DNA from: Geothrix sp. PMB-07 | GTDB taxonomy: Bacteria > Acidobacteriota > Holophagae > Holophagales > Holophagaceae | DNA: 64,000 nucleotides | Assembly: GCF_030758935.1 (NCBI RefSeq) | Contig: NZ_CP132333.1 | Location: 496,001 to 560,000, forward strand | Direction: 5' to 3' | In this document: positions 690 to 8,091 of the stretch, piece after piece | Layout of the letters: each line of letters starts with the position of its first letter | Position numbering within the stretch: the first letter of the stretch is position 1 | Notes under the pieces: generated by a model | What the model saw: only the letters and a program-made list of their open reading frames with translations | The model's database searches: none | What the model was told of the DNA's origin: nothing | Translations under genes and position numbers: made by a program

Positions 690-2285
690 ATGACTAAGTA
701 TGTGTTCGTCACCGGCGGTGTGCTTTCGAGCCTGGGCAAGGGCATTGCCGCGGCGAGCCTGGGCGCCCTGCTGGAGGCCCGCGGGCTGAAGGTGACGCTC
801 ATGAAGATGGATCCCTACCTGAACGTGGATCCGGGCACCATGTCGCCCTTCCAGCACGGCGAGGTGTTCGTCACCGATGACGGTGCCGAGACCGATCTGG
901 ACCTGGGCCACTACGAGCGCTTCACCTCGGTGCCCACCACCCAGAACCACACCATCACCACGGGCCGCATCTACAACACCGTGATCCAGAAGGAGCGCCG
1001 CGGCGACTACCTGGGCAAGACCGTGCAGGTGATCCCCCACATCACGGACGAGATCAAGGGCGTGATGAAGAAGGTGGCCAAGGACATGGACGTGGTGATC
1101 GTGGAGATCGGCGGCACCGTGGGCGACATCGAGAGCCAGCCCTTCCTCGAGGCCATCCGGCAGTTCAAGCTGGAAGCGGGCCTCGGCAACGCCATCAACA
1201 TGCACCTCACCTACGTGCCCTTCATCAAGGCCGCGGGCGAGCTGAAATCCAAGCCCACCCAGCACAGCGTCAAGGAACTGCGCGCCCTGGGCATCCAGCC
1301 CGACGTCCTGCTCTGCCGCGCCGAGCAGGACATCCCCCGCGACTTGAAGGACAAGATCGCCTTGTTCTGCTCCGTGACCCAGGACGCGGTCTTCAGCGCC
1401 CGCGATGCCCACTCCATCTACGAGGTGCCCCTCAACCTGCACCAGGAGGGCCTCGATGCCAAGGTGGCCGTGCTGCTGGGGCTGGGCGAAAAGCAGCCGG
1501 ATCTCAGCGCCTGGCAGAACCTGTTGCACCGCATCCGCAACCCCAAGGGCAGCGTGCGCATCGGCGTGGTGGGCAAGTACGTGGAGTTCAAGGAGAGCTA
1601 CAAGAGCCTCATCGAGGCCCTGCACCACGCAGGCTACGGACTGGAAACCCACGTGGACCTCAAGTGGATCGAGGCAGAAGAACTGGAGAACCAGGATCCT
1701 GCCGCCTTCCTGCAGGATTGCCACGGCGTGCTGGTGCCCGGCGGCTTCGGCGTGCGCGGCACCCGCGGCATGATCAAGTCCATCCAGTACGCCCGCGAGC
1801 ACAAGATCCCCTTCTTCGGCATCTGCCTCGGCATGCAGATGGCCTCCGTGGAGTTCGCCCGCAACGTGGTGGGTCTGGAAGGCGCCGATTCCACCGAGTT
1901 CGACGACGCCCCCAAGCATCGCGTGATCTTCAAGCTGCGCGAACTGGTCGATGTGGAAGAACTGGGCGGGACCATGCGACTGGGCGCCTATCCCTGCCGC
2001 CTCGCGCCGGCCAGCCAGGCGGCCAAGGCCTACGCCAGCACCGACATCAGCGAACGCCACCGCCACCGCTACGAGTTCAACCACGAATACAAGAAGGCGC
2101 TGGAGGAGAAGGGTCTCGTGTTCACGGGCATGAGCCCCGATGGCGTCTTCGTGGAGATCGTGGAGCTGAAGGACCACCCCTACTACCTGGCCTGTCAGTT
2201 CCACCCCGAGTTCAAGAGCCGCCCCCTGAACCCGCACCCCTTGTTCACGGCCTTCGTGAAGGCGAGCGCCATCAATCGGGGCTGA
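690..2285 (+). CDS. pyrG: CTP synthase
   Basis: Makes CTP from UTP, ATP and glutamine in the cytoplasm, the last step of pyrimidine nucleotide synthesis. The 531-residue length is normal for the family. The N-terminal synthetase domain opens with [16 protein letters not shown], the nucleotide-binding loop, followed by [20 protein letters not shown]. The C-terminal glutamine amidotransferase domain has the nucleophile cysteine in GICLGMQMA and the catalytic histidine in [10 protein letters not shown]. The ATG at 690 is preceded by AAGGAG, which lies a few bases beyond the right arm of the GxxExxY element, so the element has inserted immediately upstream without removing the translation signal. 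A strong hairpin follows the stop. Confidence 0.97.
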
Positions 2286-2304
2286 TGTCAGGCGGATGAA
2301 CAAG

Positions 2305-2332
2305 GAACGGGGCGGGAATTCCCGCCCTGTTC
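2305..2332 (+). terminator. Rho-independent-type terminator after pyrG
   Basis: A near-perfect dyad of about 14 base pairs around GGGCGGGAATTCCCGCCC, 20 bases after the pyrG stop and followed by a short T-rich run. The two arms meet with almost no loop, so it may work as a palindrome in either direction. Confidence 0.55.
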
Positions 2333-2532
2333 TATTGTGGGGCCCAGCCGCGGCCGAAAAGCACCCATGGCACCCTCAGAGCACCACCGAGACCTCCAGG
2401 CGGGGTTGTGACCCTTGACCGCCCCTAGGTTCTGGTCTTGAAAGACGATGTAAGTATCATTTATGTGGACTCGGACCCGCATCCAGGCAGGTTGGTGTTC
2501 CAGTTCATTGCCAGAAAGAACGGGGAGGGATC

Positions 2533-3810
2533 ATGCAACTTTCGGGCTTGCGGTACGGCTCCAAGCTTCTGCAGCTGGTTGAATTTCCCGTGGCGGAGTT
2601 CATTGATGGATCGGCCACGAACCAGGAGATCCAGCAGTTCCTCGAGAAGCACAAGAAGCTGGTGGTGAAGCCGGCCTTCTACGGCGGTGTGGGAAAAAAG
2701 GGCAAGGCGGGGCTGGTGCGGGTGGTGAGCACGCTGCAGGAGGCCCTGCAGGCCAAGCGCGATCTGTTCTTCGCCCAGCATGTCTACGGCAACAAGACGG
2801 TCACGGCCAATGGGGTGACCATGGAGGCCTTCGTCCCCTCCGATCTGGAAGTCTATTTCAGCATCTCCAGTTCCAGCGTGCACCGCGGCCCTGTGTTCAC
2901 CATCACGCCGTGGGGCGGTGTGGACATCGAAGAGCTTCCGGCCGAGAAGAAGGCCGTGGTGGAGATCGATCCCTTCATCGGTATCAATGCCTTCGAGATC
3001 ACCAACGCGCTGACGGATACAGGCTGTCCCGAGGCCTTCATCTCGGCCCTGGTGCAGCACCTGCCCAAGCTTTGGGACCTCTATGATGGCTACGGCCTCA
3101 CCACCATCGAGCTCAATCCCATCCGGGTGCAGCGCCGGAACAACCAGATCCTGCCGGTGGCCTGCGACGTGAAGGCGAGCTTCGATCAGGACAACCCGGC
3201 CTGGAAGCGCATCGGTTTGCCCGATGTCCTCTTCCAGACGGAAACCACCCCCTTCGAGGCGGACATCAACGAGCTGCGCACCTACCAGGGCCAGAGCGAC
3301 GTGCTGGAGATGAATCCCAACGGCAGCATCATTCCCTTCATGTTCGGCGGCGGCGCCAACAGCGCGGGCACGGAAACGCTGGGCGAGGCGGCCATCTTCT
3401 CCTCGGATTTCGGCGGCAATCCTCCCTACGAAAAGATCTACGAGATCAGCCGCATCGCCTTCGATCACTGGTACAAGCAGGCCAGCATGCTGCTGCTCAT
3501 CGGCGGCAAGGCCAACAACACGGACATCTACGTGACCTTCAAGGGCGTCTTCGATGCCCTGCGCGACCACGTTTCAAAAGCGGGCTGGAAGCCGCTCTAC
3601 GTGGTGATCGGACGGGGCGGGCCCAACGTGGTGAAGGGCATGTTCTACGCCAAGGACATCCTCGACCGCCTGCGGCTGCCCTACAAGGTGTTCGGCCACG
3701 ACACGTCCATGATCCTCACGCTGGAATATGCGAAGAAGGTGGACGAGTGGTGGCGGGCCGAAGGGGCCGAAGCCTACCGCAAGCAGGTTGAAACGCAGGT
3801 CCGGGCCTAG
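2533..3810 (+). CDS. ATP-citrate lyase, small (ATP-grasp, citrate-binding) subunit
   Basis: This is the subunit that activates citrate with ATP; together with the large subunit it would cleave citrate with CoA to acetyl-CoA and oxaloacetate, the signature reaction of the reductive TCA cycle. At 425 residues it fits the usual length of the small subunit. The N-terminal half has the ATP-grasp fold features VVKPAFYGGVGKKGKAGLV and, later, TIELNPIRV, the usual metal/ATP-binding end of the domain. The C-terminal half (from about residue 255, MNPNGSIIPFMFGGGANSAG) is the citrate-binding CoA-ligase-like domain. GGGAGG precedes the ATG. The large subunit begins 9 bases after the stop, so the two are one transcription unit. 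Confidence 0.85.
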   Translation: MQLSGLRYGSKLLQLVEFPVAEFIDGSATNQEIQQFLEKHKKLVVKPAFYGGVGKKGKAGLVRVVSTLQEALQAKRDLFFAQHVYGNKTVTANGVTMEAFVPSDLEVYFSISSSSVHRGPVFTITPWGGVDIEELPAEKKAVVEIDPFIGINAFEITNALTDTGCPEAFISALVQHLPKLWDLYDGYGLTTIELNPIRVQRRNNQILPVACDVKASFDQDNPAWKRIGLPDVLFQTETTPFEADINELRTYQGQSDVLEMNPNGSIIPFMFGGGANSAGTETLGEAAIFSSDFGGNPPYEKIYEISRIAFDHWYKQASMLLLIGGKANNTDIYVTFKGVFDALRDHVSKAGWKPLYVVIGRGGPNVVKGMFYAKDILDRLRLPYKVFGHDTSMILTLEYAKKVDEWWRAEGAEAYRKQVETQVRA

Positions 3811-3819
3811 GAGATAGCG

Positions 3820-6546
3820 ATGCGACGACTGAAGACACGTCCCTTCCCCTACTACGTCGGCCTCCACTCCCTCGAAGAATTGGTGACCCGCGAACACCGC
3901 GTCTGCGTCATGAACATCCTGGGTAGCGAAAGCCGCAAGGTGACGCCGGTGTCGCACGAGTACAGCGGCGGCAACGTGGTGGCTGGTGTTCAGTATGGGC
4001 GCCGGGGCAGCCTCGAGACGAAGATCGGCGCGATCCCCGTCTACCGGAGCATCCGCGAAGTCATGGAGCATGGCATCGCCTTCGACATGGGCGTGGTCTA
4101 CATTCCGCCCCAGGGTGTGTGCAAGGCTGTTTCAGAACTGGTGACCCACAACGAGGCCCTCAAACGCATCGTCATCGTCACGGAGAAGGTGCCCGCGCGG
4201 GATTCCCGCAACATCCGCGCCCTCTGCCAGGAAGCCGGCGTCGACGTCATCGGCGCCAACTGCCTGGGCATGGCCAATGCCTGGGATCGGGTGCGCATCG
4301 GCGGCAGCCTGGGTGGTGATCACCCCGAAGAAACGCTGGTGAAGGGCTCCATCGCCATCCACTCCAACTCTGGCAACTTCACCACCACCATGGCGGAGTA
4401 TCTCCGCACGGCGGGCTTCGGCATCAGCACGGCGGTATCGAGCGGCAAGGATGTCTACATCCACTTCGCCCTGCCGGAATTCCTCTATGCGGCGCAGAAC
4501 GATCCGCGCACCAAAGCGGTGGTGGTCTACGTTGAGCCCGGTGGCTACTACGAAAAGATGGCCCTGGATTGGATCAAGGACCGCACCTTCGGCTTCACCA
4601 AGCCGATCATCGCCTGCGTCACCGGGCGCTGGAAGAAGAACATCACCCGGGCTTGCGGCCATGCCGGCGCGCTGTCCGGCAGCGGCGACGATGCAGAGAG
4701 CAAGGAACGCTGGTTTGACGAGTACTTCGGGGTGGATGTCTTTGACCCCAAGACCAGCGAGGTGAGCAAGCGCGGTGTGCGCGTTTCCAGCATCCAGTAC
4801 ATCCCCGATGCAGTGCGCGCCGTCTACGAGAAGATCGGCGAAAAGCCCGACTTCGCCACCACGGGCGATCTGTCCCTCAAGCTCTGGCTGGGCGACACCA
4901 TGGTGAAGCTGCCTCCGGCCCTGGATCTGCCTCTGACCAAGCCGCCCGCACCCTACGACCGCCAGGTGGTGGAGGTGATCAAGCAGGTGGGTGCCCACTA
5001 CCTGCGCCAGAACATGGCCGACAAATCCGGCGCCTCCCGCATGAGCCCGGAGACCCAGGTCTCCGAATTGCATGGAAAATCGGTGCTGGACCTGTCGCGC
5101 CGCACGCTGGAAGAGAACCTGTTCTTCTCCCTTGCGAAGGTGATGCCGGATAAGGTGGACATCCCCACGCTGAACCTGATCCTCAACCTGTTCCTGAAAA
5201 TTGATGAACGCCGCATGGCGGCCATCGACGTGGCGCGGGACAACGGGTGCACGCCCAATGCCTACCTGGCCTCTCAGATCGCCTTGGTGGGCGACAAGGG
5301 CCTGCTGGCGAAATCGCGGGAACACGCCCGCTTCATCATCGACCTCATCCGCGAGTTTGGCCTGGATGAGCACACGGAGGCGCTGCCGCCCGAACTGGAC
5401 GCCTATGTGGAGAAGCACCTCCTGAGCGCCGAACCCTCGCGCAAGACGGATGTCTCCAACCTGCTCTTCAAGGAAGTCAAAAAGTCGAAGAAGTCCTGTG
5501 TGGCCCTCCGGGTCTGCCAGCACATCATCGACATGGCGGAGAAGAAGAAGCTGGAGATCCGCGACACCTACGAGTTTCTGCTGGCCACCATCGCCGTGTG
5601 CGTGCTGTGGAATCCCATGCTGGAGAAGCGCATCAGCCGCCAGTTGGTGGAGGATTCGGTCACCTACTTCTACCTGCTGGCGCGCATCGTGGCCTATTCG
5701 GTGGTGGACCGGGAGCACAACCCCCACTGGAAGAAGCTGGTGGACAAGAAGCTGTCGAACCTGAACCTCAGCTTCACGGAGAACGCCTTCAAGGTGCTGT
5801 TCGGCCGGGTGCCCGGGGCCTCGGAGTTGCTCGAATTCCAGACGCTCCTCGGGCTCACCATTACCAACGGCCCGGGCACCCTGTCAGCCAAGGGCGCCAA
5901 GGAGAGTGTCAGCGCCCGCAACGACATCTCCATGTCCTTCGTGGGTTTCCTCTCGAACACGGGCCGTGCGCATGGTGGCAACGGCTATGAGTCCATCAAC
6001 TTCCTGATGGAGCAGTTCAAGGATGCGGGGCTGAAGGATCCAGGCGATCCCAACCACGGCCTCGATCTGAAGGCCATGGCCAACAAGGCCGCCAAGGCCT
6101 ACGGGGCCTACAAGAAGAAGGCGCAGGAAACCGAGGATGGGGCGGTGAAGCCCATCCCCTGCATCAACCACCCGGTGTTCCGCGGCAACAAGATCAACGT
6201 GGATCCCAGGGAGCAGTTCGTGTCGGGCATGCTGACGGAGAAGGGTATTTATAACGCCTTCTGGGAGTTCTACCACCATCTGGTGAAAGAGCTGTACGCC
6301 GAAGGCGTGACCAAGAATGTCTTCTGCGTGAATGTGGACGCGGTGCTCGCCGTGATCGCGCTCAAGCTGGTGTGGAAGGATCTTCAGGCCGGACGTCTCA
6401 GCCTTCGCCAGGTCCAGGAAGTGGCCTTCACGCTCTTCCTCTTCGGCCGCAGCGTGGGGGTCTCTGCTGAGATCGCCGATCACCGCGACCGCGGGCTGGA
6501 CATGGATTGCCGCACGCCGGAAAACGAGTTGACCTTCATCCTGTAG
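3820..6546 (+). CDS. ATP-citrate lyase, large subunit (CoA-ligase plus citryl-CoA lyase), unusually long
   Basis: Carries the CoA-binding and phosphohistidine domain (about residues 1 to 330) and a C-terminal citrate-synthase-like citryl-CoA lyase domain. The phosphorylated histidine is H281 in ACGHAGALSGSGDD. In the lyase part the citrate-synthase triad can be placed as H718 (AHGGNG), H784 (INHPVFRG) and D840 (NVDAVLA), with spacings close to those of true citrate synthases. The protein has 908 residues, roughly 300 more than the 600 to 610 typical of the large subunit. The extra, mostly helical stretch lies between the two domains, about residues 340 to 640. It starts 9 bases after the small subunit behind TAGGAG. 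A bidirectional terminator separates it from the convergent citrate synthase. Confidence 0.82.
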   Translation: MRRLKTRPFPYYVGLHSLEELVTREHRVCVMNILGSESRKVTPVSHEYSGGNVVAGVQYGRRGSLETKIGAIPVYRSIREVMEHGIAFDMGVVYIPPQGVCKAVSELVTHNEALKRIVIVTEKVPARDSRNIRALCQEAGVDVIGANCLGMANAWDRVRIGGSLGGDHPEETLVKGSIAIHSNSGNFTTTMAEYLRTAGFGISTAVSSGKDVYIHFALPEFLYAAQNDPRTKAVVVYVEPGGYYEKMALDWIKDRTFGFTKPIIACVTGRWKKNITRACGHAGALSGSGDDAESKERWFDEYFGVDVFDPKTSEVSKRGVRVSSIQYIPDAVRAVYEKIGEKPDFATTGDLSLKLWLGDTMVKLPPALDLPLTKPPAPYDRQVVEVIKQVGAHYLRQNMADKSGASRMSPETQVSELHGKSVLDLSRRTLEENLFFSLAKVMPDKVDIPTLNLILNLFLKIDERRMAAIDVARDNGCTPNAYLASQIALVGDKGLLAKSREHARFIIDLIREFGLDEHTEALPPELDAYVEKHLLSAEPSRKTDVSNLLFKEVKKSKKSCVALRVCQHIIDMAEKKKLEIRDTYEFLLATIAVCVLWNPMLEKRISRQLVEDSVTYFYLLARIVAYSVVDREHNPHWKKLVDKKLSNLNLSFTENAFKVLFGRVPGASELLEFQTLLGLTITNGPGTLSAKGAKESVSARNDISMSFVGFLSNTGRAHGGNGYESINFLMEQFKDAGLKDPGDPNHGLDLKAMANKAAKAYGAYKKKAQETEDGAVKPIPCINHPVFRGNKINVDPREQFVSGMLTEKGIYNAFWEFYHHLVKELYAEGVTKNVFCVNVDAVLAVIALKLVWKDLQAGRLSLRQVQEVAFTLFLFGRSVGVSAEIADHRDRGLDMDCRTPENELTFIL

Positions 6547-6559
6547 TTGTCGTTTCGCC

Positions 6560-6594
6560 AAAAAGGGGCGGGCCATTGGGCCCGCCCCTTTTTT
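6560..6594. terminator. Bidirectional terminator between ATP-citrate lyase and citrate synthase
   Basis: A perfect 15-base-pair hairpin, AAAAAGGGGCGGGCC with loop ATTG, has A5 at one foot and T6 at the other. It therefore gives a U-run to transcripts from either strand. It sits between the two convergent stops. Confidence 0.9.
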
Positions 6595-6607
6595 GGATGT
6601 GTGGGAG

Positions 6608-7918
6608 CTACTTCCGTCCGCCCTTGGCGGCCCACTCTTCGAGCATGTCGGTGGTGACCGACTTGGGGCGCTCCAGGGGGTAGTTCAGGGCGCGGTCCCA
6701 GGTGATGTTGGCGAGCACGCCCAGGGCACGACCGACGCCGAAGAGCACGGTGTAGAAATCGTATTCGCGCAGGCCGTAGTACCACTGGATGACACCGCTC
6801 TGGGCATCGACGTTGGGCCAGGGGTTCTTGGTCTTGCCCTGCTCGGTGAGCACGCCGGGCGCCACCTTGTAGATCATGTTGACCAGCTTGAAGAGCGGAT
6901 CGTTGGGCAGGTTCTTCAGGCAGAACTCCATCTGCGCGGTGTAGCGGGGATCGGTCTTGCGCAGGATGGCGTGGCCGTAACCGGCGATGACTTGGCCGGA
7001 GTTGAGGGTGTCCCAGAGGGCCTTGCGGATGTTCTCTTCGGTGGGCTCGGCGCCATCCAGCTGTTTCTGGAATTTCAGCAGCCAGTCCAGCACTTCCTGG
7101 TTTGCGAGGCCGTGCAGGGGGCCCGCCAGGCCATTGAGACCGGCGCTGAAGCTGTAGTAGGCATCGGACAGGGCGGAGGCCACCAGGTGTGTGGTGTGGG
7201 CGCTGACGTTGCCGCTCTCGTGGTCGCTGTGCAGGATGAAGTACATGCGGGCCACATCGTCATAGGGTTTGGCGATGCCCATCATGTGGGCGAAGTTGGC
7301 GCCCATGTCCAGGCCGGGCTTGGCGGGGATGATGTCGCCGTTCTTGTACTTCCAGCGGTAGATGAATGCGGCGATCTGGGGCAGGCGCGCCACGAGATCG
7401 GAGGCGTCTTCGAACATGGTGTCCCAGTGCTGGTCTTTCTTCATGCCGTGGTAGGCGGCGGCGAACTTGCTGTCCTTCTGCATGGAGAGCACGGCGGCGG
7501 AGAGCATCACCATGGGGTGGCTGTCCTTGGGCAGGGCGCGGATGACGTCGAAGACGTAGGCCGGCACCTTGGCCCGTTCCTGGAAATCGGCCACCAGCTC
7601 TTCGGTGTCCTTGGCCGTGGGGACTTCCCCCGTGAGCAGGAAATACCAGAAGGATTCCACCGTGGGGTATTCACCGCCGGGGGCCTTGGGCAGGGCCGCA
7701 AAGGTTTCGGGAATGTTCTTGCCGCGGAATCGGATGCCCTCCTGGTAGTCGAGGTAGGAGATGTCCGTGACCAGGGCGTGGATGTCGCGGGCGCCGCCCA
7801 GGGCCTGGCTGATGGTGACCTGGTCGATCACCACATCGCCGAATTCCTTGTTAAGACGCTGGGTGCGCGGGCGGTGCTCTAGGATCTTCTCCAGAAGGCG
7901 GGCTTTGAGATGGGTCAT
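6608..7918 (-). CDS. gltA: Citrate synthase, eukaryote-like type
   Basis: Condenses acetyl-CoA and oxaloacetate to citrate. The 436-residue protein lacks the N-terminal extension of the hexameric enterobacterial enzyme and reads like the dimeric mitochondrial type, which is also known from Geobacter. Catalytic residues are recognisable: H in GLAGPLHGLANQ, H in AGYGHAILRKTDPR and D in REYDFYTVLFG. The ATG at 7918 follows AGGAGC. The gene faces the ATP-citrate lyase pair, so the cell encodes both directions of citrate chemistry side by side. Which direction operates cannot be read from the sequence. Confidence 0.92.
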   Translation of the reverse strand: MTHLKARLLEKILEHRPRTQRLNKEFGDVVIDQVTISQALGGARDIHALVTDISYLDYQEGIRFRGKNIPETFAALPKAPGGEYPTVESFWYFLLTGEVPTAKDTEELVADFQERAKVPAYVFDVIRALPKDSHPMVMLSAAVLSMQKDSKFAAAYHGMKKDQHWDTMFEDASDLVARLPQIAAFIYRWKYKNGDIIPAKPGLDMGANFAHMMGIAKPYDDVARMYFILHSDHESGNVSAHTTHLVASALSDAYYSFSAGLNGLAGPLHGLANQEVLDWLLKFQKQLDGAEPTEENIRKALWDTLNSGQVIAGYGHAILRKTDPRYTAQMEFCLKNLPNDPLFKLVNMIYKVAPGVLTEQGKTKNPWPNVDAQSGVIQWYYGLREYDFYTVLFGVGRALGVLANITWDRALNYPLERPKSVTTDMLEEWAAKGGRK

Positions 7919-8091
7919 GGGAGCGGCTCCTGTGAAGAAAAGTTAGGGGAGAACGAGATCGGATGGTTGAGGACAATTATGCTTGCCTCTTCCATCGAAG
8001 GCATTGCAGTCCTTCATGAATATTCAAGAAACCGCGCTGGCTGGGCTGGGAGCGTCAGGGCAGAGTGTTACCTGTATGAAAAGGATCTTCC

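Follow-up and report, generated by a model that had tools for sequence, protein, structure and literature searches.

A two-subunit ATP-citrate lyase of Geothrix with a long large subunit and a putatively doubled lyase domain

The 64,000-nucleotide stretch of the Geothrix sp. PMB-07 genome analyzed here (contig NZ_CP132333.1, positions 496,001 to 560,000; hereafter the window, whose numbering is used throughout) contains two adjacent genes, aclS and aclL, which are likely to encode a two-subunit, long-form ("type II") ATP-citrate lyase (ACL). The extra residues of its large subunit are best read as an inactive first copy of the lyase domain that, in tandem with a catalytic second copy, would fold like one chain of citrate synthase. 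With 908 residues, the aclL product exceeds two large subunits of short ACLs deposited in the PDB, 6hxj_B (617 amino acids) and 6hxi_B (631 amino acids), by 291 and 277 residues, respectively.

Architecture of the large subunit

The aclL open reading frame runs from an ATG at 3820 to a stop codon ending at 6546 without internal stops. The aclS product matches the Pfam domains Citrate_bind (65.4 bits) and ATP-grasp_2 (57.7 bits), both above cut-off, and aclS is the one citrate-binding-domain gene of the source genome; by that mark, aclS-aclL is the only ACL there. In the aclL product, CoA-binding and succinyl-CoA-ligase-like domains score above the Pfam cut-off, and a Citrate_synt match at residues 619-887 reaches 22.7 bits, below the cut-off of 27. 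The features of the pair are as follows:

2533..3810, + strand: aclS, predicted ACL small subunit, 425 amino acids, ATP-grasp and citrate-binding domains
3820..6546, + strand: aclL, predicted ACL large subunit, 908 amino acids, starting 9 bp past aclS
3820..4854, + strand: aclL residues 1-345, citryl-CoA synthetase alpha-like module (CoA-binding and ligase domains)
4660..4662, + strand: codon of H281, the presumed phosphohistidine, in a GHAGA motif aligned with the GHAGA of 6hxq
4978..5739, + strand: residues 387-640, putative copy 1 of the lyase domain, without catalytic residues (hhalign to copy 2)
5740..6543, + strand: residues 641-908, copy 2, the predicted catalytic citryl-CoA lyase domain (hhalign)
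5971..5973, + strand: codon of H718, in an HGG motif aligned to the HG of citrate synthase
6169..6171, + strand: codon of H784, placed by profile alignment to citrate synthase
6337..6339, + strand: codon of D840, placed by profile alignment to citrate synthase

The synthetase module finds its best sequence match, over residues 26-302, in 6hxq, the citryl-CoA synthetase small subunit (E 2.4e-36). No variation was seen at H281, H718, H784, D840, or the DPR of 795-797 in any of the 41 sequences of an alignment comprising the window protein, 33 of the 46 loci recovered by a profile scan, and 7 plasmid records (out of 19 with 80% coverage). Left out of the 33-locus set were the near relatives L022, L025, L027, L031, L049, and L053; the cut or gapped L032, L038, L056, L059, L065, and L066; and L051, which has an X in its translation. 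The lyase triad aligns to the citrate synthase profile with a probability of 95.4, pairing HGG with LHG, NHPVF...DPRE with GHA...DPR, and NVDA with NVDA. Conservation is uneven along the chain, with mean identities to the window protein across 32 relatives of 0.70 in the synthetase part, 0.42 in copy 1, and 0.56 in copy 2.

The relationship between the two halves of the C-terminal part was assessed by dividing it into residues 387-640 and 641-908 and comparing the two profiles by hhalign. With 35 sequences (30 from an earlier set plus the 7 plasmid sequences minus L035 and L055, the first row serving as column reference), copy 1 matched copy 2 with a probability of 96.7, an E value of 4.5e-10, and a score of 72.9 over 198 columns (427-628 versus 649-883). 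The best of 300 column shuffles scored 23.5, and the reversed profile scored 18.9. Applying the column rule of the first test to the full set of 41 sequences again gave 198 columns; that first test, with 30 sequences, had matched just 41 columns with a probability of 67.9. We also made 16 subgroup pairings among 7 plasmid, 5 Desulfobacter-like, and 29 other sequences and all 41 together, including copy 1 of one group against copy 2 of another, and these returned probabilities from 22.4 to 96.8. In 14 of the 16, W597 of copy 1 pairs with W852 of copy 2; its partner is residue 851 or 849 in the remaining 2. Hence, at the level of sequence profiles, the repeat of 587-627 with 842-882 is firm, and its extension upstream of 587/842 is drawn from the pooled profiles and from the matches to citrate synthase. 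Residues 387-640 thus resemble the citryl-CoA lyase domain at 641-908 and seem to be a further copy of it. In the long alignment, H718 lies opposite G494, H784 falls in a gap, D840 lies opposite E585, and DPRE lies opposite TDVS. On this alignment, copy 1 lacks all three lyase residues and, therefore, cannot perform lyase chemistry in the known way.

Structure prediction is consistent with this arrangement. Modeled alone, residues 387-908 gave a pLDDT of 86.3 and a pTM of 0.88, and a Foldseek search with this model listed 50 matches that are all citrate or methylcitrate synthases, with target TM-scores of 0.54-0.69. By VIA-align, positions 3-512 of the model (residues 389-898) superimpose on residues 2-353 of the Bacillus subtilis citrate synthase chain (2c6x), with a Z score of 27.7, 341 of 363 residues aligned, and a root mean square deviation (rmsd) of 3.7 Å. 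The same region taken from the whole-chain model scored a Z of 24.9 to citrate synthase; the best Foldseek match of the whole-chain model itself was the Chlorobium limicola ACL, with an rmsd of 18.5. Citryl-CoA lyase is absent among the 50 VIA matches listed, an absence that carries no weight. The prediction is thus that both copies together make up an entire citrate-synthase fold, in which case the extra residues would supply what a short ACL needs to become a complete citrate synthase chain.

These results bear out much of the initial annotation of this DNA, which had been made from the sequence alone. It had described a large subunit about 300 residues over the usual and had placed H281 and H718/H784/D840 where the alignments put them. 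The extra stretch is helical in the predicted structures, as it had proposed. Of the limits of 340 and 640 that it gave for this stretch, the latter holds, whereas the start is better set at about 387. Its suggestion of a "fuller citrate-synthase large domain" was right in outline, in that 387-908 is predicted to fold as a complete citrate synthase, the extra part of which shares homology with the lyase half that follows it.

Origin of the extra residues and identity of the family

Profile comparisons relate both copies to the lyase and citrate synthase families. Copy 2 matches a citryl-CoA lyase-like profile with a probability of 96.0 and the C-terminal half of citrate synthase with 93.7, and copy 1 reaches 72.0 with the N-terminal half of citrate synthase. 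None of 100 shuffles attained the scores of the four comparisons of copies with halves or lyase. The lyase-like profile was built from 19 of 20 loci (L135, which has an internal stop, was dropped), all below the curated cut-off of the family, and these are accordingly lyase-like rather than proven lyases. When the PDB was searched with the 30-row C-terminal profile, the only match below an E value of 0.1 was the citryl-CoA lyase 6hxp (E 0.00088).

Several results weigh against this interpretation. Taken alone, the N-terminal motifs barely match between the copies (3.6 and 17.7 in two tests). An alignment of 198-201 columns emerged in just 3 of the 16 pairings, all with the pooled copy 1 and with pooled, plasmid, or Desulfobacter-like copy 2 as partner; the remaining 13 covered 38-99 columns, in the C-terminal part of the copies only, and the weakest (22.4) was that of the 29 other, chromosomal relatives against themselves. 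Copy 1 reached just 25.6 with the citryl-CoA lyase-like profile. The halves of citrate synthase, put through the identical test, showed no detectable internal repeat (1.4 and 0.3), so that the parallel with this enzyme rests on the fold and the half-to-half matches. The whole-chain model was weaker (pLDDT 76.7, pTM 0.60), which makes the relative placement of the domains unreliable; residues 351-410 are poorly predicted in it. Finally, the lyase module of human ACLY has been argued, in the available excerpt, to act allosterically (PMC10115795), and the cleavage step is thus debated even for the short form.

A serious alternative, to which we give a little less than an even chance, is that no duplication occurred inside ACL: either a tandem citrate-synthase-like protein was fused to the citryl-CoA synthetase alpha chain, or the duplication was inherited jointly with citrate synthase. 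The predicted citrate-synthase fold of the whole doubled module would suit such an origin, as does the 96-residue stretch opening copy 1, which matches the N-terminal half of citrate synthase at 90.4 (E 1.4e-6) as opposed to 66.0 for the lyase-like profile and has about 14 residues in common with that half that are not in the lyase profile. At the sequence level, this stretch hints at one duplication common to type II ACL and citrate synthase. The comparisons of entire copies, however, point the other way: copy 1 scores 72.9 with copy 2 versus 39.6 with the N-terminal half of citrate synthase, and copy 2 scores 66.6 with the lyase profile versus 55.1 with the C-terminal half. The initial annotation had also offered a new regulatory or assembly module. 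The low conservation of copy 1, the least conserved part of the subunit (0.42 against 0.70 and 0.56), might be expected of an unrelated module of this kind. We nevertheless regard it as very improbable, because the profile of copy 1 shows homology to both copy 2 and citrate synthase with scores that no shuffle reached and the predicted citrate-synthase fold spans both halves of 387-908; on homology and predicted fold together, an unrelated insert was rejected.

The name type II ATP-citrate lyase was reportedly proposed by Hugler and Sievert in 2011. According to the available excerpts, type II ACLs occur in tubeworm symbionts, magnetotactic cocci, and Thioflavicoccus (PMC3522073, PMC6783814, PMC6315080), those of Magnetococcus MC-1 being Mmc1_3638/3639 (PMC6783814), genes intermediate between type II ACL and the two-enzyme system occur in Planctomycetes (PMC5459899), and the ACL of Nitrospina shows very low similarity (PMC3578206). 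The plasmid of Thioflavicoccus, the part of its genome that was searched, contained no match. The published type II primers, as excerpted (PMC3522073), translate to VAKEEWF and NGFEAIA; in 32 of 34 sequences, these peptides fall at two conserved places, which are residues 293-299 and 721-727 of the window protein, the exceptions being L046 for the forward and L064 for the reverse primer. The equivalent places read ATDKIRAF in 6hxq and GALEDAM in 6hxp. The heptapeptides themselves agree with the window protein at 4 of 7 positions each, which is no better than chance (equaled by 567 and 666 of 2,000 shuffles). A conventional ACL, 6hxj_B, is matched by just residues 71-290 of the aclL product (E 2.1e-15). 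Given primer peptides at conserved places in the right order and the low similarity to conventional ACL, we take the aclS-aclL family to be, most likely, the type II ACL of 2011. The initial annotation had raised a distinct ACL type, and the family is indeed distinct, but it is hardly new if, as is most likely, it had already been named (PMC3522073 and PMC6783814, both as excerpted). No description of the length or of a doubled lyase domain in type II ACL turned up in the passages searched, which did not include the review of Hugler and Sievert, the structural study of Verschueren (2019), or the papers of 1987. The initial annotation had held that many characterized large subunits of the same length and insert would speak against a distinct type; many subunits of equal length exist, and no purified and characterized long-form large subunit was found in the literature searched. 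A length of 908 residues is normal for the aclL family.

Distribution, genomic setting, and physiological role

A single scan with a profile built from nine same-class sequences recovered 46 loci that are 46-97% identical over the best segment, in records titled Geothrix, Holophagaceae, Acidobacteria, Ignavibacteria, KSB1, Calditrichaeota, Planctomycetota, Phycisphaerales, Krumholzibacteriia, Lambdaproteobacteria, Draconibacterium, and Desulfobacter, among others. The aclL product is 84-92% identical to that of Geothrix/Holophagaceae records and 97% identical to that of an Acidobacteria metagenome-assembled genome (MAG); together with a shared gene order, this places the source genome with Geothrix. 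The subunit is essentially of whole length in 41 of the 46 loci (including L065, which has an internal gap), and the other 5 end at contig edges. An assembly fault or frameshift as the source of the length was ruled out by the presence of the long form in several phyla. In 44 loci aclS lies upstream of aclL, and the remaining 2 are contigs cut within aclL. One MAG labeled Myxococcales (L054:4721-8724) carries a Geothrix-like pair, with an aclL 86% identical to that of the window, in a 14.7-kb locus in which pyrG and the citrate synthase gene were not found; it represents either a transfer or mis-binning.

A protein search of plasmid records returned 106 records, in 19 of which a single place covered 80% or more of the query. 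Identities range from 42.8 to 45.1% among the 15 of these 19 matches listed, whose hosts include Sinorhizobium, Paraburkholderia, Microvirga, Gemmobacter, Aminobacter, Caballeronia, and Polymorphobacter, and several are annotated as "CoA-binding protein." In a FastTree tree of the 41 sequences, the plasmid sequences cluster with the Desulfobacter-like ones (support of 0.93-1.0). Of 7 plasmid neighborhoods examined, 6 were annotated; an ATP-grasp or citrate-binding gene lies upstream in 5 of these, and tripartite tricarboxylate transporter genes and a thioesterase occur in 2 (Gemmobacter and Microvirga). On plasmid p2 of Gemmobacter fulvus (L100:6713-17487), the pair lies beside tcuA/tcuB and genes for a tricarboxylate transporter permease, 4-oxalomesaconate tautomerase, and an acyl-CoA thioesterase. 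This region is likely a tricarboxylate-catabolism cluster, the content of which suggests that some members may act on another tricarboxylate. On plasmid pUSP3 of Aminobacter sp. MSH1 (L098:6681-10712), typed as conjugative, the pair lies near a CBASS phospholipase gene; its presence on a plasmid of this type implies that the pair can be mobile.

In the window, the pair is bordered by two genes:

690..2285, + strand: pyrG (CTP synthase), left border of aclS-aclL (NCBIfam CTP synthase, 842.9 bits)
6608..7918, - strand: ordinary citrate synthase gene, convergent with aclL, 61 bp between (Pfam and NCBIfam)

The latter scores 317.8 bits with Pfam Citrate_synt and 771 bits with the NCBIfam citrate (Si)-synthase model, above cut-off. 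The pair is present in 8 of 25 same-genus genomes, in all 8 beside the convergent citrate synthase gene. Among the 17 without it, some of them incomplete, pyrG and the citrate synthase gene are convergent in 13, with gaps of 66-92 bp in 9 genomes and 715-1303 bp in 4, and the place was not seen in the other 4. This presence or absence at window 2286-6607, between pyrG and the citrate synthase gene, indicates that the pair was gained or lost as one block. The citrate synthase gene itself is kept in all 25 (as partial pieces in G003 and G017). A sigma-70 promoter scan of 2200-8000 gave no hits, and the 6 terminator-like sites there, as against 4.0 in shuffles, are uninformative. The source genome has 5 POR_N genes. 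No genes of the reductive tricarboxylic acid cycle were seen among 10 neighbors in 5 relatives. Across 28 carrier genomes, a Citrate_bind gene was found in all, with a single match in 26 and one above cut-off each in D. latus and D. vibrioformis; a citrate synthase gene besides ACL was not found in 9. Several of the 28 genomes are MAGs. The three Desulfobacter genomes searched, D. latus, D. vibrioformis, and a further one (one of the three being a 1.5-Mb MAG), are among these 9 and showed no separate citrate synthase gene.

The ACL reaction is, in principle, reversible, and two roles may be weighed for the pair. ACL activity in Desulfobacter, and ATP synthesis by ACL in D. postgatei, were reportedly described in papers of 1987. 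In the ATP-forming direction, proposed for Desulfobacter, citrate would be made from acetyl-CoA and oxaloacetate during acetate oxidation. That this is the main direction here is possible, though rather doubtful. It would fit the Desulfobacter relatives, which carry the long ACL and no other citrate synthase that we found, and the title of the 1987 work on D. postgatei (title only) points the same way, as does the sulfate-reducer-like MAG OS_PC_MetaG.mb.69 (L063:1908-10584), in which the pair stands between genes for ATP sulfurylase and a DHH/DHHA2 pyrophosphatase-like protein on one side and a NIR_SIR gene on the other. Yet the citrate synthase gene of all 25 same-genus genomes would make an ATP-forming route redundant, and the tripartite tricarboxylate transporter genes near the pair in 2 of the 6 annotated plasmids suit cleavage instead. 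The arrangement in the L063 MAG, NIR_SIR being of the sulfite-reductase type, looks as if it were tied to sulfate respiration. Growth on citrate, with the long ACL replacing the citrate lyase CitDEF in citrate fermentation, seems to us unlikely on balance. Geothrix fermentans DSM 14018, which carries the long ACL (L053), is able to ferment and assimilate citrate according to the available excerpt (PMC10580321), and none of the 16 same-genus genomes searched has CitF above cut-off, as such a replacement would have it. On the other hand, the ACL carriers G000, G004, and G008 do have a partial CitF match below cut-off (23.7-24.6 bits), and searches of the source genome for citrate uptake, limited to three families that include such proteins (TctA, Na_sulph_symp, and CitMHS), gave no match.

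Proposed mechanism and relation to known systems

By analogy with homologous enzymes, ATP and citrate would bind to the small subunit, and citryl phosphate would form by way of a phosphate carried on H281 of the large subunit. Attack by CoA on the synthetase part would then yield citryl-CoA, which copy 2 (641-908), using H718, H784, and D840, would split into acetyl-CoA and oxaloacetate. From the repeat and the predicted fold, copy 1 may replace the neighboring lyase protomer, one chain thus amounting to two protomers in tandem. Citrate synthase is a dimer, and the bacterial short ACL is an alpha4beta4 complex with a core made from four single-domain chains. With two lyase domains per chain, a dimeric core is expected, and we infer that two chains would form a citrate-synthase-like core in an alpha2beta2 rather than an alpha4beta4 complex, with two lyase sites. 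In human ACLY, according to the available excerpt, single lyase domains assemble into a homotetramer at the center of the enzyme (PMC10115795).

An origin of citrate synthase from the citryl-CoA lyase core has been proposed from short ACL structures, as excerpted (PMC9871338). We tentatively suggest, with confidence somewhat short of even, that type II ACL retains, in recognizable form, both copies from the lyase-domain duplication by which citrate synthase, a dimer, arose from a tetrameric citryl-CoA lyase core. It would then be a living intermediate between ACL and citrate synthase, with an alpha2beta2 assembly unlike that of the short ACLs in the PDB, and would also account for the ACL activity seen in Desulfobacter. 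An ACL with its lyase part doubled and fused would make the step from lyase to citrate synthase testable, and the Desulfobacter activity reportedly described in 1987 would thereby be tied to a likely gene pair. The plasmid matches also suggest that genes annotated as "CoA-binding protein" on rhizobial and Burkholderiales plasmids encode ACLs in some cases, so that ACL genes can mislead when used to search for autotrophy.

With type I ACL (Chlorobium limicola 6hxj, Methanothrix 6hxi, human ACLY), the predicted enzyme shares a synthetase alpha module, which matches in both sequence and fold, followed by a lyase domain of citrate synthase homology; the type I large subunit of 617 or 631 amino acids, however, has room for one lyase domain, whereas the 908 residues of aclL appear to hold two copies. 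In the Hydrogenobacter system, the citryl-CoA synthetase 6hxq matches residues 26-302 and the lyase 6hxp matches the start of copy 2, but the two are separate proteins and the lyase is a single domain of 268 amino acids. Citrate synthase (B. subtilis 2c6x and others) has in common with aclL the whole predicted fold of 389-898 and the catalytic triad; it lacks a synthetase module and spans about 360-440 amino acids, whereas in aclL the corresponding part is fused to such a module and scores below the Citrate_synt cut-off. Type II ACL, as described in the excerpts available, has two genes, a fused large subunit, and low similarity to conventional ACL, as in aclS-aclL.

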